Origin: a virus
IMG/VR virus record: IMGVR_UViG_3300020281_000127
Span: 1-24,161 of that record
Direction: 5' to 3' (one strand)
DNA: 24,161 nt
How positions within the stretch are numbered: the first letter of the stretch is position 1; the number at the start of each line of letters is the position of its first letter. The notes beneath the pieces were generated by a model. It was not told the origin of the DNA and made no database searches. It worked only from the letters and a program-made list of their open reading frames with translations. Shown piece by piece: positions 5,412 to 20,598 of this stretch. Made by a program: the position numbers and the translations under genes.

Positions 5412-7550
5412 ATGGCGAAGTATGGAAAAGATTATGATCTAGACGATCAAGAAATAGACACCCAAGAATTAAGCGGAATAATTAAGGCGGAAATGGACGA
5501 CGCCAGGGATTTTATAGATCAAGTAGGAAACGAGAGATCTGAAAATACAGATTATTATTTAGGATCTGAGCCTTACGCGACGAGCGAATTACAATCAGAA
5601 TATATATCAACCGACGTAAGAGATAGCGTATTGTTTATGCTCCCGTCCATAATGCGTACTTTTTTTGGATCTAAAAAAATTGTTGAATTTATACCGCACG
5701 GGCCAGAAGATATTGAGGTCGCAGAACAACAAACAGATTATATAAATTACGTTATCTCACAAAAAAATAATGGTTTCCAGGTTATGTATAACGCGTTCAA
5801 AGACGCCCTGGTTAGAAAATCTGGTTTTGTAAAAGCGTATTACGACGAAGGCCTTACGGTCACAAATCACTCATATACGGGCCTTACACCTACGCAAAGA
5901 GACGCATTGTTAGCGGACGAAGAGATCGAGGTCGTATCAGAAAAAGGCGAAACTATGTCCAGGGAGATCTATGATCCCCAGGAACAAAAAGAAATAACCC
6001 AGGAGATCCCTCTTAGATACGATATGAGGATCCGCAGAGTAAGACGCAACAATAAAGTTTGTATTGACGCAATCCCACCGGAAGAGATCTTGATCGCTAG
6101 AGACGCCAGGACAATAGAGACGGCAAGTTATGTCGCTCATAGAAGGATGATGACAATTAGCGAATTAGTACAAATGGGATACGAATATGACGAGGTTGCC
6201 TCGTTTGCGGGAGGCGGAAACTATATGGATCCAGAAACACAAATTGAGATCCAGGCAAGAAATCCGTTTTCTGATATGTCCGGGCCAGATCGTCCAGACA
6301 ACAACGAGGTATATTACGTCGAGCATTATCTAAATTATGATCTTGATAATGACGGTATCGACGAAAAAATTAAGATCTGCACGATTGGCGAAGGATGTAA
6401 TATTTTAGATGTTGAGCCGTGCGATCATTTACCTATCGTTATGTTTTGTCCGGATCCAGAGCCTCATACAGTTATAGGATCTTGTCCGGCGGATTATCTA
6501 AAACCAATCCAGGCCGCAAAATCTCAAATTATGAGAGATAGCCTGGACAGTTTAGGCCACGCGATATTCCCAAGATACGCAGTAGTCGAGGGCCAGGTTA
6601 ATTTAGAGGATCTAATGAATACAGATATCGGGCAACCGGTAAGGCAAAGAGCGCCTGGCCAGATCCAACCATTGACGACACCTTTTGTCGGCAAGGAGGC
6701 CTTTGGAGTTTTAAATTACCTGGATACTGTAAAGGAAGAGAGAACGGGAATATCAAAAGCAAGTATGGGCCTCAATGCAGACGCTTTACAATCTTCTACA
6801 AAAGCGGCCGTCGTTGGAACTATGAGCGCGGCGCAAGGAAGAATAGAATTAATTTGTCGTCATTTTGCAGAAACGGGCCTCAAGCCTTTATTTAAAATTG
6901 TAAATAACCTGGTTATTAGAAATCAAAATGAGGAAGATGTTTTCAGATTAAATAATAAATTTATTCCGGTAGATCCAAGAGTTTGGGATACCGATAAAGA
7001 TCTCCAGGTAAACGTCGCAATATCAAAAAATAGTGACGACGAAAAAGCGGCCGTCCTGGCGAATGTTTTAGGAAAACAAGAAATGATTTTGAAAGAATTA
7101 GGCCCAGGCAATCCTTTAGTTTCCGGTCAACAATATGCAAACGCTATGAGTAAGTTTATAGAGTTAGCCGGTTTCAAAGACGCACAACAATTTATAAATA
7201 CCGAAGTGCCAGAGCCTAGTCCACCGGCGCCAGAGGATATGAAACCAGATCCTCAAGAATTATTAGCAATGGCGGAAGGCGAGAAGGCAAAAGCAACGGC
7301 CCAAAAAGCAATCGTTGACGCAGAAAACGATCGTTTAAAAATTCTTATGGATGATGATTTCAAACGAGATCAAGCGTCCGCAGACGCTCTCATAAAAATT
7401 ATGGAGTTAAATGCAAAATATGGAACTCAAATAACAATGGCGGAAATAAATGCGTACTTGGAAAGAGATAAAGAAGAAATCAGACAAAGATCTAAACTTG
7501 GAGGAGGAATTGGACAAAATACTCCTGGCGATCAACAAATCCCGCAGTAA
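5412..7550 (+). CDS. Portal protein, P22-like size class
   Basis: This is the dodecameric head-vertex channel through which DNA enters and leaves, 712 residues, close to the length of the P22 portal. The N-terminal half has SVLFMLPSIMRTFFGSKKIVEF and KSGFVKAYYDE, typical of the clip/wing core of podovirus portals. The middle has KPIQAAKSQIMRDSLDSLG followed by GQPVRQRAPGQI and RTGISKASMGLNADAL. The C-terminal 130 residues are a long charged helix (EGEKAKATAQKAIVDAENDR) resembling the barrel or coiled-coil region. It lies four bases after TerL, the usual order. The family call rests on context, length and these motifs. Confidence 0.9.
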   Translation: MAKYGKDYDLDDQEIDTQELSGIIKAEMDDARDFIDQVGNERSENTDYYLGSEPYATSELQSEYISTDVRDSVLFMLPSIMRTFFGSKKIVEFIPHGPEDIEVAEQQTDYINYVISQKNNGFQVMYNAFKDALVRKSGFVKAYYDEGLTVTNHSYTGLTPTQRDALLADEEIEVVSEKGETMSREIYDPQEQKEITQEIPLRYDMRIRRVRRNNKVCIDAIPPEEILIARDARTIETASYVAHRRMMTISELVQMGYEYDEVASFAGGGNYMDPETQIEIQARNPFSDMSGPDRPDNNEVYYVEHYLNYDLDNDGIDEKIKICTIGEGCNILDVEPCDHLPIVMFCPDPEPHTVIGSCPADYLKPIQAAKSQIMRDSLDSLGHAIFPRYAVVEGQVNLEDLMNTDIGQPVRQRAPGQIQPLTTPFVGKEAFGVLNYLDTVKEERTGISKASMGLNADALQSSTKAAVVGTMSAAQGRIELICRHFAETGLKPLFKIVNNLVIRNQNEEDVFRLNNKFIPVDPRVWDTDKDLQVNVAISKNSDDEKAAVLANVLGKQEMILKELGPGNPLVSGQQYANAMSKFIELAGFKDAQQFINTEVPEPSPPAPEDMKPDPQELLAMAEGEKAKATAQKAIVDAENDRLKILMDDDFKRDQASADALIKIMELNAKYGTQITMAEINAYLERDKEEIRQRSKLGGGIGQNTPGDQQIPQ

Positions 7551-7719
7551 AGTTTTTCACTTAGAGGCGGTAGCAAATGATCGATTGTATGTTGGATCTG
7601 AAATTCAAGCCGATAGTTTAGAGGAGGCCGAAAGTTTGATGAAATTGGTTTTTTTTAATTATTTTGTAAATGCAGATGATGTAAAAATTCATTGCATTTC
7701 GGAGAATTGGCTACACTAA
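7510..7719 (+). CDS. Small protein overlapping the portal end, unrecognised
   Basis: I favour a TTG start at 7510 (69 residues), since GGAGG ends six bases upstream; an ATG at 7450 in the same frame would overlap the portal by 101 bases. The protein has the pattern LYVGSEIQADSLEEAESLMKL, a strand followed by a helix with a VxAxSxEEA-like core, then a second strand and helix. A similar stretch (GPIVKANSYEEAQAQARIM) occurs in the gene at 8975-9169, so both may carry the same small domain. The function is unknown. The stop overlaps the next ATG in TAATG. Confidence 0.6.
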   Translation: MDKILLAINKSRSKVFHLEAVANDRLYVGSEIQADSLEEAESLMKLVFFNYFVNADDVKIHCISENWLH

Positions 7720-7982
7720 TGGCGAAAAGAGATCCAAGATTAAAAAGATTGGGCCTAAAAGGTTTTAATAAACCTAAAAGGACGCCAGGACACCCAACGA
7801 AAAGCCACGTTGTATTGGCTAAAGAAGGATCCAAAACCAAAACTATCCGGTTTGGCCAACAAGGAGTATCCGGAGATCGTAAAATGACAAAACGCGCTAA
7901 ATCTTTTAAGGCCAGGCACGGAAAAAATATTGCAAAAGGCAAAATGAGCGCGGCTTATTGGGCCAACAAAGTGAAATGGTAA
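7719..7982 (+). CDS. Basic DUF5872-like protein
   Basis: This encodes 87 residues from ATG at 7719, overlapping the TAA of the gene before it. An upstream start at 7692 in frame is possible but lacks support. The protein is strongly basic. It carries LGLKGFNKPKRTPGHPTKSH (residues about 12-31), FGQQGVSGDRKMT and KSFKARHGKNIAKGKMSAAY near the C-terminus. I recall this pattern as the DUF5872 family seen in marine phages and in algal giant viruses; this is from memory and not a search. The biochemical role is unknown. It heads a run of four basic proteins between portal and holin. Confidence 0.75.
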   Translation: MAKRDPRLKRLGLKGFNKPKRTPGHPTKSHVVLAKEGSKTKTIRFGQQGVSGDRKMTKRAKSFKARHGKNIAKGKMSAAYWANKVKW

Positions 7983-8013
7983 TATGCAATCGAAATTTAA
8001 AAGAGGATTAGAA

Positions 8014-8238
8014 ATGAAAAAGACCAGGGCAAAAAGAAAATTTGCAAAAGTGCCTAAGACTTCCGGAGGTGTTCCAAAAAAATATGTATCTGGAGCAAAA
8101 AATAAAAAATCCAGGGAGGCCGAAATCAAAAAGACGGCTAAGTTATACAAAAAAGGAAAGCTAACGCCGTCAATGATGAATAAAATTACTAAAATGAGGA
8201 GCAAAAGTGCCAAAAAAAGCAGTAAGAAAAAAAAGTAG
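8014..8238 (+). CDS. Lysine-rich small protein
   Basis: I choose ATG 8014 (74 residues) because AGAGGA lies seven bases before it; the ATG at 7984 has no ribosome site. About 41 percent of residues are Lys or Arg (30 of 74 by my count). It includes VPKKYVSGAKNKKSREAEIK in the middle and a lysine tail KSSKKKK at the C-terminus. It is likely to bind DNA or RNA or to be packaged with the genome, but no catalytic motif is present. It resembles basic proteins that accompany the DUF5872-like gene in other marine phages, as far as I recall. Confidence 0.7.
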   Translation: MKKTRAKRKFAKVPKTSGGVPKKYVSGAKNKKSREAEIKKTAKLYKKGKLTPSMMNKITKMRSKSAKKSSKKKK

Positions 8239-8479
8239 CGGTAGCAGTAGCGAAACTACTCTTAAAAAATATTCGAAACAATACAACGTACCCGTTGGCA
8301 TACTTCGCCAGGTTGTGAAGAGAGGCAAAGGGGCGTATTTTTCGAGTGGATCTCGTCCAGGACAAACTCCAACATCTTGGGGCCTGGCCAGGGCGCGATC
8401 GTTTGCGAGTGGATCCGGGGGCGCAAGAAAAGCGGACGCGGATCTTTGGAAAAAAGTAAAAGCCAGAAGGAGGAAATAA
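8207..8479 (+). CDS. Basic DUF5824-like protein
   Basis: This encodes 90 residues from a GTG start at 8207, with GAGGAG six bases upstream and a 32-base overlap with the gene before. The core is YNVPVGILRQVVKRGKGAYF, then SRPGQTPTSWGLARARSFASG and ADADLWKKVK. That pattern (a helix, RGxGA, RPGxTxxxWGxARxxSF) matches the family I remember as DUF5824, found in marine phages and algal viruses. The N-terminus is a Lys/Ser-rich tail. The function is unknown. Its TAA overlaps the ATG of the 27-residue gene that follows. Confidence 0.7.
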   Translation: MPKKAVRKKSSGSSSETTLKKYSKQYNVPVGILRQVVKRGKGAYFSSGSRPGQTPTSWGLARARSFASGSGGARKADADLWKKVKARRRK

Positions 8480-8562
8480 TGCCAAAAGGTATCGGAACTT
8501 ATGGATCTAAACGTGGAAGGCCACCAAAGAAAAATAAGAAAAAGAAAAAAGGAAAGAAGTAA
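8479..8562 (+). CDS. 27-residue AT-hook miniprotein
   Basis: A strong AAGGAGG lies five bases before ATG 8479. The frame is 27 codons long and ends in a TAA that overlaps the holin ATG. The sequence begins MPKGIGTYGS and continues KRGRPPKK followed by a lysine-rich tail. RGRP flanked by basic residues is the core of the AT-hook, which binds the minor groove of AT-rich DNA. Half the residues are Lys or Arg. The excellent ribosome site and the tight overlaps show that it is translated. It may condense phage DNA or act on host chromatin; that is inference. Confidence 0.75.
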   Translation: MPKGIGTYGSKRGRPPKKNKKKKKGKK

Positions 8563-8978
8563 TGTTGGAACAATTAATAAAACCGGCGTCGGATATTATC
8601 GGTAAGTTTGTAAAGGATAAAGATCTACAAGCAAAACTAGATCACGAATTACAAACTTTATTTCATCAAGCCAATATGGCCCAGATTGAGATCTTAAAAG
8701 AGGACGCTAAATCTAAAAATTGGTTTCAAAATTCGTGGAGGCCCTCGGTAGGTTGGATCTGTTCAATCGCCCTGGGCGTTCATTTTATAATTTTGCCCCT
8801 GGCGGAATGGGCCGCAAGATTGTCAGGTATAAATGTAGATCTTCCAGAATTTGATTTTACTCAATTATCAACAATCTTAATGGCTATGTTAGGAATGTCT
8901 GGCCTTAGATCCTATGACAAATCAAACTTACTAAAAGAAAAAACAAAAGTAGCTAAAGAGATAATAGATCCTAGATGA
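8562..8978 (+). CDS. Holin, GTA-type 3TM family
   Basis: This 138-residue protein should form the membrane lesions that trigger lysis and release the endolysin. It matches the pattern of the three-TM holin family first named from gene transfer agents: an amphipathic N-terminal helix ending HQANMAQIEILKEDAK (35-50), then the conserved WRPSVGWICSIALGVHFII (59-77) starting a membrane segment. A further membrane segment runs over about 100-115, followed by GMSGLRSYDK at 111-120. The WRPxVGW and GLRxYxK signatures are the strongest evidence. The endolysin lies two genes downstream. Confidence 0.9.
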   Translation: MLEQLIKPASDIIGKFVKDKDLQAKLDHELQTLFHQANMAQIEILKEDAKSKNWFQNSWRPSVGWICSIALGVHFIILPLAEWAARLSGINVDLPEFDFTQLSTILMAMLGMSGLRSYDKSNLLKEKTKVAKEIIDPR

Positions 8979-9169
8979 AAATGTACTTATCAGAAATAGT
9001 ATGCGTTTGCTCTCAAGGAGACGAGCATTTATTTTCTGGGCCAATAGTCAAAGCGAATAGTTATGAAGAGGCCCAGGCACAAGCAAGGATAATGAATAAG
9101 GATCTATATATCGTCGGAGAATACTTTGGAAATCTAGGAGCGGAATATGAACACCTGGGAGTTTCCTAA
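8975..9169 (+). CDS. Small protein between holin and endolysin, unrecognised
   Basis: This encodes 64 residues. It overlaps the holin by four bases (ATGA) and the endolysin by 23, so it is co-translated with the lysis genes. An N-terminal strand (MYLSEIVCVCSQGD) is followed by SGPIVKANSYEEAQAQARIM and DLYIVGEYFG. The central part resembles the gene at 7510-7719 (ADSLEEAES), suggesting a shared small alpha/beta domain. Two cysteines lie near residues 10 and 12. The function is unknown; its place suggests a link to lysis, perhaps as an antiholin or endolysin partner. Confidence 0.65.
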   Translation: MKMYLSEIVCVCSQGDEHLFSGPIVKANSYEEAQAQARIMNKDLYIVGEYFGNLGAEYEHLGVS

Positions 9170-9524
9170 TTTTTCTGAAAAAGAATTCGCTTGTCGTCAT
9201 TGCGGCAAATGCGAAATGGATCTTGATTTTGTAGCCAAACTGCAAGAACTTAGATCCAAGGTAGATCTACCAATGAAGATCTCTTCTGGATATAGATGTA
9301 AAGATCATCCGGTAGAGGCAAAAAAAAGCGCTCCAGGAACGCATAACGAGGGCGTAGCGGCCGATATATTGTGTTTTGGATCTAATGCCCATAAAATTTT
9401 GAGTATGGCTTTAGAACTTAAATTTCAAGGAATAGGAGTTAATATGAAGGGAGATCGTAATTCCAGGTTTATTCATTTAGATATGAGTAAGAAAAAATCT
9501 AGGCCTACGATTTGGAGTTATTGA
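9147..9524 (+). CDS. Endolysin, M15-type zinc peptidase
   Basis: This 125-residue enzyme should cleave peptide bonds in the peptidoglycan cross-links. The pattern is that of the small M15 peptidases (Peptidase_M15_3 type): KEFACRHCGKCEM near the N-terminus, ISSGYRCKDHP at 45-55, then GTHNEGVAADI at 64-74 and FIHLDM at 108-113. The zinc ligands are expected to be H66, D73 and H110. The protein ends RPTIWSY, as is common in the family. There is no signal peptide, so it depends on the holin at 8562. The start overlaps the previous gene. Confidence 0.9.
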   Translation: MNTWEFPNFSEKEFACRHCGKCEMDLDFVAKLQELRSKVDLPMKISSGYRCKDHPVEAKKSAPGTHNEGVAADILCFGSNAHKILSMALELKFQGIGVNMKGDRNSRFIHLDMSKKKSRPTIWSY

Positions 9525-11117: not shown

Positions 11118-12059
11118 ATGGCTAAAATTAGCAACGCGTTTACGACGTACGACGCCCAGGCAAATAGGGAAGAAATTTCGGATCTAATTGCAAATATAGA
11201 TCCAAGTGCAACGCCTTTTATGTCTGCGCTAGGCACGAAAAACGTAAACAACACAACTTTTGATTGGCAAACTGAGAGCCTTCCAACTGTAAGTGCAACC
11301 GGAGAACTTGAAGGTTTTGAAATAACTAGAGAGGCCTCTACACCTACTGTTAGAGAGAGCAACGTGTGTCAAATCAATTCAATTAACGCAACTGTATCTG
11401 GATCTCAGAACGCGGTTGACGCAGTAGGCAAAAGGTCAGAAATGGCTCATCAACTAGCGATTATGTCTAAAGCATTAAAAAGAAATATGGAAACTGCTTT
11501 ATGTCAAAACCAGGCTAAAAATGCCGGGAACGCTACTACTGCAAGAGCAACCAGATCTTTTGAGGCCTGGGTATCAACTAACGTAAGCAGAGGAACGGGA
11601 GGATCCAACGGATCCGCAAGTGCCGCCGCTACGGACGCCACTAACGCTAACAGACGTGCGCTAACTGAGGCATTGTTAAAAGGTGTTCTGCAAAGTATGT
11701 TTACAAACGGAGCAGAGCCAAACTTGGCAATCGCCGGGCCGGTTAATAAGCAAGTAATTTCTGGCTTTACCGGTAGAGCAAACACTAGAGCAACTGTTGA
11801 CGCCGGTACTATTTCAAGTAGTGTCAGTATCTACGCTTCGGATTTTGGAGAACTCCAAATCATACCTTCAAACAGATCTAGAGACAGATCTCTTTTATTG
11901 GTAGATCCGGAATATGCGAAAGTGTGTTTCTTGAGAAACTTCTCGACGGTTGATATCTCAACAATCGGAGACGCGGAAACTAAAATGCTTGTAGCCGAAT
12001 ACGGCTTAGAAGTATCGAACGAGGCCGCTCACGGTATTGTTGCAGACTTAACTACTTAA
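11118..12059 (+). CDS. Major capsid protein, SU10 type
   Basis: This is the HK97-fold shell protein, 313 residues, with a strong AAGGAGG before the ATG. The N-terminal part (REEISDLIANIDPSATPFMS near residues 17-36) and TFDWQTESLPTVSATGELEG match what I know of the SU10/DUF5309 capsid group. That group has a short N-arm and no cleaved delta domain. AIMSKALKRNMETALCQNQ (about 114-132) is the spine-helix region. The C-terminal part ends with KMLVAEYGLEVSNEAAHGIV. It lies between the scaffold and a hairpin at 12068, which may reduce read-through and give this gene the highest dose. Confidence 0.9.
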   Translation: MAKISNAFTTYDAQANREEISDLIANIDPSATPFMSALGTKNVNNTTFDWQTESLPTVSATGELEGFEITREASTPTVRESNVCQINSINATVSGSQNAVDAVGKRSEMAHQLAIMSKALKRNMETALCQNQAKNAGNATTARATRSFEAWVSTNVSRGTGGSNGSASAAATDATNANRRALTEALLKGVLQSMFTNGAEPNLAIAGPVNKQVISGFTGRANTRATVDAGTISSSVSIYASDFGELQIIPSNRSRDRSLLLVDPEYAKVCFLRNFSTVDISTIGDAETKMLVAEYGLEVSNEAAHGIVADLTT

Positions 12060-13457: not shown

Positions 13458-15398
13458 ATGGCCTCTGTTCCTTATGGATCGTATTTTTACGGGCGTTCCA
13501 GATATGGAACGCCTGGATATCATTTTGCGGCTTGTCAGATCTCTGCGTCTGCAACCGTTAGCAATACACCTACGGTTAATTTTAATTTACAAGGCCCAGA
13601 GACAATAGCGGCCGTCGCGTCAGTAGCGGCGATCGGCAATCATAAATTTCACGGAGCGGCAACTTCGCAACAAAATTCAGATCTCTTAGTAATCTCTGAA
13701 AGATTGAAGTTAGGGATCCCTTTACCAATTACAGAAACATCTAGCACGTTCGCCCAGGGCATACAGATAGATCAAGCCGGAGTATTTATACTTCCTCAAT
13801 CTGGCCTGGCGGCAACCGGTAATCAAATAGATCTGGGAGCAACGAGTATTTCTGCGGCCTCAAATAATATTACGTCCGGCCTTAGAATTAAATTAGGCGC
13901 ATTACCAATATCCGCAGTCTCAGGATCTACTCAAGCCGGTTTAAAAATTAAATTAGGCCAGGTAAATCCTTTAGGTACTTCATCAACAATTAGTGTCGGT
14001 ACTCAAATAGATCTAGGAGCCGTCTCAAGTGCTAGAGAGATCTCAAACGTATCAACGTTAAATCCGCAATATACAACTCAGGATATTCCTATGGTCGTTC
14101 ATTTACAAAACGGCCGATATGTCTATGAACATACAACCTCGGATTTTACAAACGTTCAAACGCCAATGTCTCTAAAACCGAACTACACGGTCAGACTGCT
14201 ACAAGATCAATCGTCAAATACAAACTACAAAGTTAATTTATCAATGGTACCAGACGGGCCAAGAAATACGTCTCGAGCGCATATTTCATTAAGAAAAGAC
14301 GCGTCTAATAATGAATATTTACAAATTATGGCCGCAAGTACCTCGAACACACCTGGAGGCACGGGATCAAATGAAAGAAGGACTTTATATTTTTATGATC
14401 TAGATACAAACGGCGGACAACCGCAATTTACCGGATCAGATCATCCTTACGTTTTTCCGACAACAACTGTCACTAAAGATCCTGGAATAACGGCAACTAT
14501 TGGATCTGTACTTGTTTCTGGTTTTCAAATGCTAACTATCAATGGAAAACCGGTTTATCAATATAACGGAGACACTAGCGCAGATATGGCCTCTGGAGTA
14601 GGCCTTACAAATTGGAAGGGCATACAAGCAGACGGATCCGCTCAAACTGCAACCGGGCCAGGATCCGGAAGTAGTCAAACATATGCGGTCACGGTTGCGT
14701 CAGGTACTAACTCATATGGATCTGGTAATAAATATTATTTAGACGGCGTAGTATCGCCAACAATTAACTTTGTTCCTGGCAATACTTATACGTTCGATCA
14801 ATCAGATCCTAGTAATGCAAATCATCCATTAAGACTTTCAACAACTCCTAATGGTACGCACGGCGGAGGATCTGAATATACAACTCAAGTCACAACATAC
14901 GGAACTCCTGGATCTTCTGGAGCCTATACAAGCATTGTTGTCACTTCATCAACGCCAAACTTAAATTATTATTGTCAAATTCATTCTGGTATGGGCGGCA
15001 CGATCAACGTATCGTCTGGATCTGCTTTTGTTTATGACAGTATTATTTATCCTGGACAAACTTATTACGGAACTCCAGGGCAACCAGGCGCTTACTTGGG
15101 AATAGCAATAACCGCAAGTACGCCAACTTTATATTATTTTAATTACGATAATGCCAATATGGGCGGGATCGGAAATATATCTACCGACGTTGGCGGCGTC
15201 GAAAGTGTATTCACGGTTGTTGGACAAAGCGCATTATCTCCGAACTCCGGACTATCTTCTATCGGTGTAAGAAGATATTTTGGTGTAGGCAATGTCGCGG
15301 GATCATCTAGTATTTCCGCCGACGGTGAATTAAAATGGATAATTCAGAATGTTCCTCAAACAGAATGGACGGAGCAAAAACTAGCAAATACACCATAA
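13458..15398 (+). CDS. Large beta-rich tail protein with 20-residue repeats, a Lipoprotein_15-like and a cupredoxin-like domain
   Basis: This 646-residue modular virion protein has no signal peptide. Residues about 82-189 hold tandem repeats with an exact 20-residue period (Ile at 104, 124, 144, 164 and 184; Leu-Gly at 126, 146, 166 and 186), suggesting a stalk of stacked strands. Residues about 308-393 (LYFYDLD and MLTINGKPVYQYNGD) resemble the Lipoprotein_15 repeat. Residues about 408-519 look like a cupredoxin: NTYTFDQSD, then H456 in NHPLRL, then YYCQIHSGMGG with C506, H509 and M512, which is a plausible type 1 copper site. Residues 521-575 are a degenerate second copy without Cys and His. 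It probably serves in adsorption; the copper role is inference. Confidence 0.75.
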   Translation: MASVPYGSYFYGRSRYGTPGYHFAACQISASATVSNTPTVNFNLQGPETIAAVASVAAIGNHKFHGAATSQQNSDLLVISERLKLGIPLPITETSSTFAQGIQIDQAGVFILPQSGLAATGNQIDLGATSISAASNNITSGLRIKLGALPISAVSGSTQAGLKIKLGQVNPLGTSSTISVGTQIDLGAVSSAREISNVSTLNPQYTTQDIPMVVHLQNGRYVYEHTTSDFTNVQTPMSLKPNYTVRLLQDQSSNTNYKVNLSMVPDGPRNTSRAHISLRKDASNNEYLQIMAASTSNTPGGTGSNERRTLYFYDLDTNGGQPQFTGSDHPYVFPTTTVTKDPGITATIGSVLVSGFQMLTINGKPVYQYNGDTSADMASGVGLTNWKGIQADGSAQTATGPGSGSSQTYAVTVASGTNSYGSGNKYYLDGVVSPTINFVPGNTYTFDQSDPSNANHPLRLSTTPNGTHGGGSEYTTQVTTYGTPGSSGAYTSIVVTSSTPNLNYYCQIHSGMGGTINVSSGSAFVYDSIIYPGQTYYGTPGQPGAYLGIAITASTPTLYYFNYDNANMGGIGNISTDVGGVESVFTVVGQSALSPNSGLSSIGVRRYFGVGNVAGSSSISADGELKWIIQNVPQTEWTEQKLANTP

Positions 15399-15416: not shown

Positions 15417-16580
15417 ATGGCAGATACATTTACTAATAACTTAAATTTGACAAAACCAGAAGTCGGCGCAAGTACCGACACCTGGGGCGGAAAAATAAAT
15501 ACGGATCTAGACAGTCTGGACGCTATTTTTGCGGCCAACGGTACTGAGGTTAATATTAGATTTGCAAGTGCAAATTTTGACGATAATAAAAAAGCAATTT
15601 TTGGATCTACTGATAATTTAGAGATCTATTACTCTGGCGCAACAAATATAATCAGGGGCCTTAGTAAAGTAGCTATTCAATCAGACGACACAACGGACGG
15701 TGTAGAAATAGGATCTCATTCAGGATCCGAGGTTATGGCTAAGTTTGTTAAGGACGGAGCCGTAAGTCTTTATCACGATAACTCAGTAAAATTAGCAACG
15801 GCCTCTGGCGGTGTAGATATAACCGGAAACATAACAGTATCAGGAACGGTTGACGGAAGAGACGTAGCAACCGACGGATCTAAATTAGACGGTATAGCAA
15901 CCGGGGCAACAAATACGGCCGCGCCTTTTTATACGGCCGCAATAACATCCTCAGACGTGACGGGCGCTTTAGGATTTACTCCTTATAGTGACGCCAATCC
16001 GTCTGGTTATACAACTTACACGGCTAATCAGGCCCTAGATACAACATCCAATCCAACCTTTAATCAGATCTATGCGAATGATTGGTTTAGAGTGAATGGA
16101 GCGGACGGTATTTATTGGCAAACTTACGGCGGCGGTTGGACAATGAATGATAGTACCTGGATCCGAAACTATGGATCTAAGGCGTTATATATGAACGCTC
16201 AAATCGCTTGTACGTCAAATATCACGGCTTATTATTCGGACGAAAGATTAAAAGAAATTGTTGGCAATATAGATAATCCTTTAGACAAGATCTTAAAATT
16301 AAAAGGTTTCCAATATGTCAATAATGATCTTGCTAAATCTTTTGGTTATACAGACGAAAAAGAACAAATAGGTATTTCCGCTCAAGCAGTACAAGAAATT
16401 ATGCCAGAGGTTGTTAGCCTGGCGCCTTTTGATATGGAAACAAAAGACGACGGATCTATTGTTTCAATGTCAGGAGAAAATTATCTAACAGTAGATTATG
16501 CAAAACTCGTACCGCTACTCATAGAAGGGATCAAAGAACTCAAAAAAGAAATAGACGAACTAAAGTCTAAGGAGGCTTAG
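15417..16580 (+). CDS. Tail fibre with C-terminal S74 intramolecular chaperone
   Basis: This 387-residue fibre protein begins MADTFTNNLNLTKPEVGAST followed by DTWGGKINTDLD, an N-terminus common among marine phage fibres that attaches to the virion. The centre is Gly/Ser/Thr-rich and beta-helical in pattern. SDERLK at 274-279 starts the Peptidase_S74 domain. This auto-cleaves after fibre trimerisation, using the Ser of SDERLK in a Ser-Lys dyad, and releases the 114-residue chaperone. GISAQAVQEIMPEVV and YAKLVPLLIEGIKELKKEID are the other family landmarks. It should determine receptor binding together with the next gene. Confidence 0.9.
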   Translation: MADTFTNNLNLTKPEVGASTDTWGGKINTDLDSLDAIFAANGTEVNIRFASANFDDNKKAIFGSTDNLEIYYSGATNIIRGLSKVAIQSDDTTDGVEIGSHSGSEVMAKFVKDGAVSLYHDNSVKLATASGGVDITGNITVSGTVDGRDVATDGSKLDGIATGATNTAAPFYTAAITSSDVTGALGFTPYSDANPSGYTTYTANQALDTTSNPTFNQIYANDWFRVNGADGIYWQTYGGGWTMNDSTWIRNYGSKALYMNAQIACTSNITAYYSDERLKEIVGNIDNPLDKILKLKGFQYVNNDLAKSFGYTDEKEQIGISAQAVQEIMPEVVSLAPFDMETKDDGSIVSMSGENYLTVDYAKLVPLLIEGIKELKKEIDELKSKEA

Positions 16581-16581
16581 T

Positions 16582-17193
16582 ATGGCATTACCTACTAGCG
16601 GCGCGTTGAGTTTGAACGCGATACATATTGAGGCGGGAGGATCTTCTGGAACTCAGGCGTCTTTGAATGACGCAGATATAAGGAATTTGATTGGCAAAGG
16701 ATCTGGCGTACAAATGTCATTTTCTGAATGGTACGGGGCCTCTGCCTCTACTCCTAACGGCTCGTCAATTACTTGCGGATCTTATAGTACAACCGGAAAA
16801 TATGCCGCCACTTATAAAGGTTATGCCGATAGTATTGCCGGTCTTGGAAGTGCAATCGGATCTTATACTGATAGAACATTTACAGTTAATGGAAAAACTT
16901 TTGATTTGATAGCAATTTACAGCAACACGGGAGGAATTTTTCAATCACACACAATCCTCATTACCGGAAATTACGCCGGTCAATCTTTACAGTCGGTCAC
17001 AGGATTTCGATATTTAAGAAATGGATCTGCTTATGTTTTTGATAGCCAATTTAATGATTACTTAGGAAATGCAATGACTTCCATTTATAACTCGTCTCAA
17101 AACTTTACTACTTGGTCGGGTATCTCATCAACAAACACGAGTATTTCTCAACTTCCTACAAGCGGAACTGTAAATTTTTATTGGAGTAATTAA
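16582..17193 (+). CDS. Second fibre or fibre-tip protein
   Basis: This encodes 203 residues. The N-terminus MALPTSGALSLNAIHIEAGG with SLNDADIRNLIG and MSFSEWYGAS is a pattern I know from small fibre-tip or receptor-binding proteins in marine phages. The rest is polar, Ser/Thr/Gly/Asn-rich and beta-type, with little similarity to anything I can name, as expected for a variable host-contact part. It starts two bases after the S74 fibre and has no S74 domain of its own. Its TAA overlaps the next ATG. Confidence 0.75.
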   Translation: MALPTSGALSLNAIHIEAGGSSGTQASLNDADIRNLIGKGSGVQMSFSEWYGASASTPNGSSITCGSYSTTGKYAATYKGYADSIAGLGSAIGSYTDRTFTVNGKTFDLIAIYSNTGGIFQSHTILITGNYAGQSLQSVTGFRYLRNGSAYVFDSQFNDYLGNAMTSIYNSSQNFTTWSGISSTNTSISQLPTSGTVNFYWSN

Positions 17194-18021: not shown

Positions 18022-18882
18022 ATGGCGTGGAATTTAGTAAAAATGTATCAAAGCACAAAACACCTTCTTACAACATATGGAGAAGGCAATGATTTAGAGC
18101 CAATGGTTGATGATCTAACCGGCGAAAGTCGTATAGATCACGTCGTAAGTTTATATCGAGAAATGAATATACCTTTTGGCCCTATGATGATGTTAAAAAA
18201 TAGAGTTTCTGAAAATGGTAGAAATATAATTTGGGGCCGCAAATGGAATGATCGAGAATATGTAGAAAAAAAAGTGATCCCAACCTTAATGAATTATGAG
18301 TATTTGAAATCGCTACCGGCTAACACGGTTGGCGCACACTATTATCATTTAATAAAAGATTACGGAATTGAAAAACTTTATAACCAAAGATTTAAAAAAG
18401 AAGAGAGAAGAGAAAATTCTAAATTTGATAATGTTTATAATTCATTTAGTGACGACATAAGAGAGAACGCCTCCAGGCATTTACTTTTATCGCACGATAT
18501 CTGGCACGTTTTATTTAGATACGATACTACGCCAATGGGCGAGGCTATGATCCAAACTATTACGGCCAGGATCTTTAATTTTTTTCCGCCTCACTTAACC
18601 GGGTTTTTTGGTACTTGGAAAATGGCAAGAAAAACTAAAAGCAAATTACCTTGGAAAGTTTGGCGAGAGTGTTTGAAATTATCTAAAGGTGTAAACAAAG
18701 AACTAGCATTATTTTCTCCAATAGAATTTTTAGAACAAGATATTCAAGAAGTGAGAGATCGTTTCAATATTTTTACGCCAAAAGTTTATGCAGAGTATGT
18801 AAAAACTTTGCCTAAATTTGCTCGTATGGACACGATACATCCAAATTATGATGATAAGTTATGGAACGCAGAAGTTATATAA
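18022..18882 (+). CDS. Coq4-like ubiquinone-biosynthesis family protein
   Basis: This 286-residue protein keeps the hallmark of the Coq4 family. HDIWH at residues 158-162 is followed after 11 residues by E174, which is the HDxxH-x11-E metal-binding motif, in the context SHDIWHVLFRYDTTPMGEAM. Upstream, YLKSLPANTVGAHYYHLIKD (94-113) matches the family's LxxLPxGTLGxxYxxF segment. In eukaryotes Coq4 is needed for ubiquinone synthesis and has been linked to C1 decarboxylation of the ring precursor. In phage the product could support host respiration during infection, but activity is not shown. It extends about 110 residues beyond the motif. Its end overlaps the next gene. Confidence 0.85.
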   Translation: MAWNLVKMYQSTKHLLTTYGEGNDLEPMVDDLTGESRIDHVVSLYREMNIPFGPMMMLKNRVSENGRNIIWGRKWNDREYVEKKVIPTLMNYEYLKSLPANTVGAHYYHLIKDYGIEKLYNQRFKKEERRENSKFDNVYNSFSDDIRENASRHLLLSHDIWHVLFRYDTTPMGEAMIQTITARIFNFFPPHLTGFFGTWKMARKTKSKLPWKVWRECLKLSKGVNKELALFSPIEFLEQDIQEVRDRFNIFTPKVYAEYVKTLPKFARMDTIHPNYDDKLWNAEVI

Positions 18883-19079
18883 AATGGAATTGGCCGATTT
18901 TAACAAAAATAAAAAAGGTCTATAAAGAAAAAGGATTATTCAAAACTATTCTTTGGATCCTAATTATTTTTTTAGGCCTCAAATTAGTAATTCTTAACGG
19001 AATTATATTTTTTATAAATACAACCTTTGGAGCCGGATTAACTTACGCTCCAATTTTAAGATCTATTTTCGGAGGATAA
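18861..19079 (+). CDS. Small membrane protein after the Coq4-like gene
   Basis: This encodes 72 residues from ATG 18861, overlapping the Coq4-like gene by 22 bases, so it depends on its translation. The N-terminal 25 residues are basic (KIKKVYKEKGLFK). Residues about 28-52 are a strong hydrophobic segment (ILWILIIFLGLKLVILNGII), with a further apolar stretch to the C-terminus. A cytoplasmic basic end and one or two membrane passes are expected. Coupling to a ubiquinone-type enzyme could place that enzyme at the membrane, or the gene could be a separate tail or holin-like protein. No family is recognised. Confidence 0.65.
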   Translation: MERRSYIKWNWPILTKIKKVYKEKGLFKTILWILIIFLGLKLVILNGIIFFINTTFGAGLTYAPILRSIFGG

Positions 19080-19080
19080 A

Positions 19081-20598
19081 ATGCCCTATATCTCAATAAC
19101 ACCTCCTCCTGGCATAAAAAAGAATGGTACTGATTACGCCAATAAAAATGCCTGGATAGACGGAAATCTTATTCGTTTTGAAAATGGTTATTTAAAAAAT
19201 ATTGGCGGTTGGCAAAAGTTAAGAGATACGCCGGTTGTTGGTACTCCGATTGGGGCCTACGCTTACTATACGAATACAAATAAAAAAGTTTTAGCAATCG
19301 GTACGCGTCAAAAAGTTTACGTCAACTATGACAACCAATGGTACGACATAACACCAACCGGATTTGTTGGAGACGCACAATCCTCTCCTTTAGGTTTCGG
19401 GGCCTATCACTATGGCCGTGAAGATTACGGAGACGCGAGATCTCAATCTGGATTGGCTTTCAATACAAAACCTTTTTCTTTTGCAAACTTTGGAGAAAAT
19501 TTAATTTTTGTTTGCGGATCTGATAACAAAATTTATAAATGGAGGCCAGACAACGGATCAGGAACAACGCCTCCAACACCAGATAGTCAGGCCGTACAAT
19601 TAACAAATTCCCCAACCGGATCTTTAGGTGTTTTGGTCACAAATGAAAGACACTTATTTGCTTTCGGTAATACCGGAGATCCTAGACAAATACGTTGGAC
19701 AAGCAGAGAAACAGATACAACCTGGACACCGGCGGCCACAAACACGGCCGGAGATCTTAGAGTGACTTCTGGAGGTCTTATACAAGGGGCCGTAAAATTC
19801 AATGCAGATATTATTGTTTTTACAGACGTTGGTTTAAATAAAGTTTATTACACCGGAGCGCCATTTATTTATGGGATCCAGGACGCCGGGCAAAATTGTC
19901 GGGCCGCAAGTATGAGAACGGTAGTAAATGCCGGAAACTTTATTGCCTATATGGGCGATAACTCTTTTTATATTTATACGGGCCAGGTACAAAAATTGCC
20001 CTCAGACGTTCACGATTTTGTTTTTGACAATATAAATTATCAATACAGATCTTCGTCTTGCGGAGGACATAATCAACTCTTTAATGAGATCTGGTGGTTT
20101 TTTCCTGGAGGCGATAGTTTAGTACCAAACAAATATGTTATTTGGAACTATATGGAAAAAACCTGGGCGACCGGATCTATGGATAGATCCTTCTGGTTAG
20201 ATCAGGGAGTATTTCCATATCCGATATCTGGAGATAGTAGCGGTAATCTATACGAACACGAAACAAACTCGATTTTAACTTCTCCAAATAATACTGATAT
20301 TCCATTTTGCAAAACCGGCCCAATACAATTAGGCCAGGGCGATAGGATTATGCAAGTAAATCAGATCCTCCCAGATAGTGAGGCAACAAATCTTCCTGGA
20401 GTGACTTTAGGATTTAAAGGTAAACAAACGCCGTTAGGATCTGAAACAGATTTTGGCAATTTTACTTTTGAGGCCGACGGATATTCCGACGCGAGATTTA
20501 GTGCTAGATCTGTTTCTTTAAATGTCACGGGCGACGCAAATCAAGACTTCCAGGTTGGAGATATTAGGTTAGATGTAAAACCAAGGGGTAGGCGATAA
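19081..20598 (+). CDS. P22 gp10-like packaged-DNA stabilisation / tail hub protein
   Basis: This 505-residue virion protein starts MPYISITPPPGIKKNGTDYA then DGNLIRFENGYLKNIGGWQK. It continues with repeated beta-propeller-like blades such as NDKIYKWRP, LITDVGLNKVYY and FFPGGDSLVPNKYVIWNYME. The length, the start and the propeller layout match P22 gp10-type stabilisation proteins, which plug the portal and join tail spikes or fibres. GGAGGAT before the ATG gives a good ribosome site. The position after the fibre block and before the ejection proteins fits. The call is by pattern, not alignment. Confidence 0.8.
   Translation: MPYISITPPPGIKKNGTDYANKNAWIDGNLIRFENGYLKNIGGWQKLRDTPVVGTPIGAYAYYTNTNKKVLAIGTRQKVYVNYDNQWYDITPTGFVGDAQSSPLGFGAYHYGREDYGDARSQSGLAFNTKPFSFANFGENLIFVCGSDNKIYKWRPDNGSGTTPPTPDSQAVQLTNSPTGSLGVLVTNERHLFAFGNTGDPRQIRWTSRETDTTWTPAATNTAGDLRVTSGGLIQGAVKFNADIIVFTDVGLNKVYYTGAPFIYGIQDAGQNCRAASMRTVVNAGNFIAYMGDNSFYIYTGQVQKLPSDVHDFVFDNINYQYRSSSCGGHNQLFNEIWWFFPGGDSLVPNKYVIWNYMEKTWATGSMDRSFWLDQGVFPYPISGDSSGNLYEHETNSILTSPNNTDIPFCKTGPIQLGQGDRIMQVNQILPDSEATNLPGVTLGFKGKQTPLGSETDFGNFTFEADGYSDARFSARSVSLNVTGDANQDFQVGDIRLDVKPRGRR

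Follow-up and report, generated by a model that had tools for sequence, protein, structure and literature searches.

Why would a phage carry, in its late structural block, a protein of the Coq4 family, which is best known for the synthesis of the respiratory molecule ubiquinone? We addressed this question in the IMG/VR contig IMGVR_UViG_3300020281_000127 (hereafter the window, i.e. the whole stretch of 24,161 bases that was analysed), which is probably a genome fragment. The carrier is an SU10-like podovirus, a virus of water-dwelling bacteria. Pfam detected on the window an SU10-type portal (5412..7550, + strand; SU10_portal, E 2.5e-185) and an SU10-type major capsid protein (11118..12059, + strand; SU10_MCP, E 1.1e-82), which mark the phage type, together with an SU10-type adaptor; terminase, holin, endolysin and scaffold genes are present as well. 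The initial annotation had located the coq4-like gene among the late structural genes, and the Pfam and PHROG annotations confirmed this location. Since the gene lies between SU10-type structural genes in the window and is found on many separate contigs, it belongs to a true phage genome and is not a host contaminant. Three to four neighbouring small ORFs between the portal and the holin (7692-8562) encode very lysine/arginine-rich products.

Family, metal motif and predicted fold of the viral protein

The gene (18022..18882, + strand) extends from ATG to TAA, is preceded by a GAGG-type ribosome-binding sequence and encodes a protein of 286 aa. Its sole Pfam family match is Coq4 (PF05019, E = 1.4e-10, 41.3 bits, gathering cut-off 22.9), and the same profile was matched by 26 of 26 diverse viral relatives (E ≤ 0.01). 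In PHROGs, structural families included, no family was found for this protein, and in NCBIfam we obtained only one sub-cut-off chance match. The segment HDIWHVLFRYDTTPMGE begins at residue 158 and contains HDIWH-x11-E (18493..18543, + strand), in which H158, D159, H162 and E174 form HD-xx-H-(x)11-E, the Zn motif known from COQ4 (PMC7615680). The motif had been pointed out from the translation with precisely this spacing, and it was indeed found at residues 158-174 of the ORF. It is retained in all 62 sequences scored in the viral clade to which the window belongs (clade I) and is also kept in a second viral clade (clade II). In an alignment of phage and bacterial Coq4 proteins, the columns G104, H158, D159, H162, G173, E174 and R245 are invariant. 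The LPxNTxGAxY segment, also assigned to the family by the initial annotation, aligns with it, G104 being invariant and L95 and Y107 nearly so. Outside the Coq4 domain, a C-terminal motif D-[TCSV]-x-H-P-x-Y (18820-18860) occurs in 40/62 clade-I proteins.

We then examined the predicted structure. An AlphaFold2 model built with 18 diverse viral relatives reached a pLDDT of 83.4 and a pTM of 0.83; an earlier model, made from five near-identical sequences, was discarded (pLDDT 38). When the model was compared with the PDB by Foldseek, the only significant matches were 3msq and 6e12, the cyanobacterial Coq4-family proteins Npun02000094 and Alr8543 respectively (probability 1.0, E 7e-5 to 7e-4; next match, E 1.5). 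VIA-align gave a Z-score of 18.5 with 6e12 (rmsd 2.6 over 203 residues) and 16.6 with 3msq, the next being 3.9. At the sequence level, a profile of 26 relatives retrieved 3msq (E 1.6e-5) with the HD..H and GE motifs aligned, whereas a PDB search with the single window sequence yielded chance matches only. The protein is thus predicted to adopt the Coq4 fold, with the metal-motif residues present. In BFVD, no similar viral fold was detected by Foldseek, although other relatives could still exist. Because the Pfam match, the fold, the 26-relative profile and the invariant columns all agree, the assignment to the Coq4 family is strong.

Like eukaryotic COQ4 (PMC7615680, PMC11495197), the phage protein matches the Pfam Coq4 profile and carries HD-xx-H-(x)11-E at the equivalent place, but it has no mitochondrial targeting sequence and is extended at both its N- and C-termini. 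It also differs in that its gene appears to be coupled to a membrane-protein gene (see below) and that no accompanying ubiquinone genes were found.

Substitution rates point to purifying selection on coq4 and to constraint on the gene that overlaps it. Between the window and 86%-identical relatives, dN is ~0.10 for a saturated dS (>1.7), i.e. a ratio of ~0.05, and dN/dS is ~0.11 for the overlapping gene; in comparison with locus L008, coq4 has a ratio of 0.105 and the overlapping gene one of 0.34. Overall, the dN/dS of coq4 is about 0.04-0.11, with dS near saturation. The gene had also been said to share the motif bias of the genome. We examined this as codon use only: its codon distance (0.16) does not stand out from those of other larger genes (0.09-0.18), but its GC content is slightly low (0.34 versus 0.38-0.44), as is that of the gene just upstream.

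A viral branch distant from cellular Coq4

By iterative scanning of IMG/VR, we collected 54 and later 62 clade-I sequences, counting the window and its close copies, which are ~34-100% identical to the window protein. They are carried by SU10-like podoviruses and by T4-like myoviruses of marine type, related to known phages through portal, capsid, adaptor and terminase; for the T4-like locus L017, the nearest terminase is that of Phage C48C1 (69%), those of cyanophages and of a Pelagibacter phage being at ~46%. Clade II comprises 22 loci (L120-L149, e.g. L122:5836-6609 and L120:5794-6525), is related to clade I by profile comparison (E 1.8e-13), is ~21-26% identical to its members and scored above the Pfam Coq4 cut-off in all five proteins tested. 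It mostly occupies the same genomic slot as clade I.

Among 50,697 GenBank phage records, neither clade was matched beyond chance level (E ~9), and no sequenced GenBank relative of these podoviruses and myoviruses was found to contain this Coq4 or P230, the protein encoded upstream of it. Scans of GTDB genomes with peptide patterns revealed no relative; these patterns are phage-specific and cellular relatives at 15-25% identity could escape them. Cellular homologs do exist, but the alignment and a tree of 41 viral and six bacterial sequences place them very far from the phage proteins: a long branch of 2.87 changes per column separates all viral sequences from the bacterial ones. Within the viral part, podovirus and myovirus contexts interleave, which suggests that the gene has been exchanged between phage types, the exact placements being unsure on such long branches. 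The long residence in viruses that the initial annotation had deduced from sequence bias is better shown by the phylogeny than by codon use. In the open-access literature we found no description of a phage Coq4 nor any link between Coq4 and phage auxiliary genes, although an earlier report elsewhere is possible. What is new here is the existence, within a known enzyme family, of a virus-specific branch that comes with a previously unreported membrane partner.

The closest structural relatives, Alr8543 and Npun02000094, share with the window protein the predicted fold over ~200 residues and the motif, but they are only 16-17% identical to it and come from cyanobacteria, which make plastoquinone and not ubiquinone. 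No membrane partner is known for either. The plasmid-borne Coq4 proteins of Cupriavidus, Sphingobium, Sphingopyxis and Nostoc have the seven invariant residues listed above, but they show 15-21% identity, lie in catabolic or uncharacterised neighbourhoods and are separated from the phage clade by the long branch. More generally, bacterial relatives occur in catabolic clusters of sphingomonads, next to cytochrome P450, acyl-CoA dehydrogenase and nitronate monooxygenase genes, and others occur in cyanobacteria; family membership consequently does not fix the substrate. It is for this reason that the proposal of an auxiliary metabolic gene supporting host respiration stands in part only: a phage-encoded protein with the Coq4 family signature, the predicted fold, an intact motif and signs of purifying selection is in agreement with it, but the respiratory, ubiquinone-related role is less well supported.

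We therefore considered that the protein could be a membrane-linked metalloenzyme acting on a lipid, on another quinone (e.g. of plastoquinone type) or on an aromatic acid, which would alter host metabolism without acting on ubiquinone. The bacterial gene contexts, the distance of the phage clade from the sampled cellular proteins and the crystal of 6e12, which contained oleic acid and Mg, are in line with such a substrate. However, the metal motif and the core positions are identical to those of COQ4 and nothing positively indicates another substrate, and we regard this explanation as rather unlikely.

A membrane protein encoded with clade-I Coq4

A second gene (18861..19079, + strand) starts within the coq4 gene of the window, with an overlap of 22 nt, and encodes a 72-aa protein with one membrane helix according to hydropathy. 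We observed such a gene in 58 of the 62 clade-I loci (52/54 in the first set and 6/8 among those added later), the exceptions being L016, L017, L095 and L096; clade II lacks it. The proteins have 62-85 aa, a single strongly hydrophobic segment and the signature W-x-[WF]-P-[IL] ... K ... N ... P, and W9, P12, K41, N46 and P64 are invariant in their alignment. Their start codon usually falls within coq4 or coincides with its stop codon, and in most of the 45 loci compared for hydropathy and overlap the two genes share 1 to 47 nt. In the window, the gene has no Shine-Dalgarno-like sequence of its own, which, together with the overlap, suggests that its translation is coupled to that of coq4. Searches with two single sequences of this protein returned only contigs carrying coq4 or contigs ending at that point, and no family was found for it in cells or catalogued phages. 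From its sequence and position, the small protein thus appears to be a dedicated partner of clade-I Coq4, the two genes forming a putative two-gene unit. A role as holin was set aside, as the window has a separate holin/endolysin pair (8562-9524).

Taken together, the fold, the retained metal residues and the membrane protein whose gene appears coupled to coq4 point to a membrane-held Zn-dependent decarboxylase, with ubiquinone precursors as the leading substrate; we estimate the probability of this reading at about 0.45. When an ancestral animal COQ4 carrying this motif was reconstructed, it proved to depend on Zn and to decarboxylate CoQ precursors at C1, and double mutants of the COQ4 motif are inactive (PMC7615680); COQ4 has also been described as an oxidative decarboxylase (PMC11495197). 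On this reading, the phage protein would be produced at a late stage of infection and would sit at the inner membrane of the host, paired with the one-helix protein. With Zn bound at the HDxxH-x11-E site, it would decarboxylate a polyprenylated hydroxybenzoate at C1 and perhaps hydroxylate it as well. This reaction would be a step of ubiquinone synthesis and might thereby maintain quinone supply and respiration during phage assembly. It counts against this reading that bacteria commonly carry out the decarboxylation with UbiD/UbiX (PMC7615680). Moreover, none of the families COQ7, FAD_binding_3 and UbiE was found in 18 related viral records, which are fragments. We also lowered our confidence in ubiquinone because of the Coq4 contexts with no obvious link to its synthesis and of the tail-fibre slot of the podoviruses described below. 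The wider proposal is that two viral lineages use a virus-specific Coq4 branch, which in one lineage forms a membrane enzyme with the one-helix protein, and that they thereby replace or boost ubiquinone ring decarboxylation of the host late in infection; we put it forward only tentatively.

For ubiG, named as a viral auxiliary gene of the ubiquinone pathway in Baltic Sea viruses, an influence on the electron transport chain has been proposed before, but this is another enzyme and another step, and the text of that paper names no COQ protein (PMC9301287). If ubiquinone precursors are the substrate of the phage enzyme, viral control would reach the very electron carrier of respiration, and such a lever would be of another kind than the photosynthesis genes that cyanophages carry. 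The pair of Coq4 and membrane protein is common to two kinds of uncultured phages and absent from the catalogued phages searched, and it may represent an unreported viral route to host respiration. The viral enzymes may also help to settle the debated chemistry of Coq4, i.e. simple versus oxidative decarboxylation.

A membrane partner could also be expected if Coq4 served as a takeover factor without catalysis, which would bind quinone or lipid intermediates or disturb the ubiquinone-synthesis complex of the host, for example in membrane poising or superinfection exclusion. COQ4 has been proposed as an organiser of the CoQ complex as well (PMC11495197). Nevertheless, residues of catalytic type are present in every sequence, where a mere binder would not need them, and we consider such a function improbable.

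The genomic slot of coq4 in podoviruses and myoviruses

In podoviruses and some myoviruses, coq4 is located behind genes for a tail fibre, a phrog_26746-like protein and P230, and ahead of a structural gene. In the window, these are a tail-fibre-like protein with a Peptidase_S74 chaperone domain (15417..16580, + strand; Pfam S74, E 3.3e-12, and PHROG tail fibre matches), the phrog_26746-like protein (16582..17193, + strand; E 1.8e-20), whose family also recurs upstream of coq4 in L017, and P230 (17303..18016, + strand), while the virion structural protein phrog_3287 (19081..20598, + strand; E 9.9e-66) forms the right border of the slot. A phrog_3287-like gene follows clade-II coq4 in L120, L122, L130, L134 and L136. 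In another tail-fibre-like protein of the window (13458-15398), the stretch NHP...YYCQIHSGMGG resembles by eye a copper-binding cupredoxin pattern (C-x-x-H-x-x-M); Pfam gave no support for such a domain and this candidate was dropped.

A protein of ~230 aa, P230, is encoded directly ahead of coq4 in both viral clades according to profile matches and synteny: it stands at position -1 in 30 clade-I loci and in 17/21 complete clade-II loci. A profile of the window-type set matched the genes upstream of clade-II coq4 with E 1.3e-39 and those of the myoviruses L017, L033, L094 and L095 with E 1.1e-20. For P230 itself, nothing above chance was found in Pfam or PHROG, and a search of the GenBank phages gave no match. 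That two Coq4 clades fill the same tail-fibre slot fits a late function tied to P230, and the constant membrane partner and the upstream P230 yield testable predictions.

Such a slot counts against the reading as a quinone-precursor decarboxylase. It raises the possibility that the Coq4 fold serves in or on the tail or host-recognition apparatus, either as a lipid-binding virion part, as already mentioned by the initial annotation, or as an enzyme modifying tail proteins. The retention of a second clade at the same place and the 2OG-Fe(II) oxygenase genes often found nearby would be compatible with this explanation. By contrast, no PHROG structural family was matched, the metal motif is fully conserved and the constant companion is a hydrophobic membrane protein and not a structural one.

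The other myoviruses weaken it further, since their coq4 lies away from tail genes and with Fe-S/redox genes. For many of them, P230 was not found on the available record; upstream are genes for a peroxiredoxin, a phosphoribosyltransferase and a short membrane protein, then coq4 and its partner, followed by a NifU-like scaffold, an A-type Fe-S carrier, a glutaredoxin and a glycosyltransferase. The NifU-like/A-type carrier/glutaredoxin/peroxiredoxin cassette surrounds coq4 in the T4-like contigs L010, L014, L018, L024, L058 and L066, and we counted it in favour of the membrane-held decarboxylase. Taken with the non-structural context, we judge a virion or tail role unlikely.

Several further genes were noticed around coq4. 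The short membrane protein encoded directly 5' of it in 18 myovirus loci has 53-74 aa and an RTSxDG motif (e.g. L010:7830-7994, L014:7773-7991 and L058:5751-5915); the one that was checked has no Pfam or PHROG match. The 2OG-Fe(II) oxygenase genes recur near coq4 and P230 at L039:7013-7711, L120:4100-4810 and L095:5132-6381. Finally, at L094:2103-3065, a gene for the small chain of ribonucleotide reductase, on the opposite strand, adjoins coq4 and its partner.
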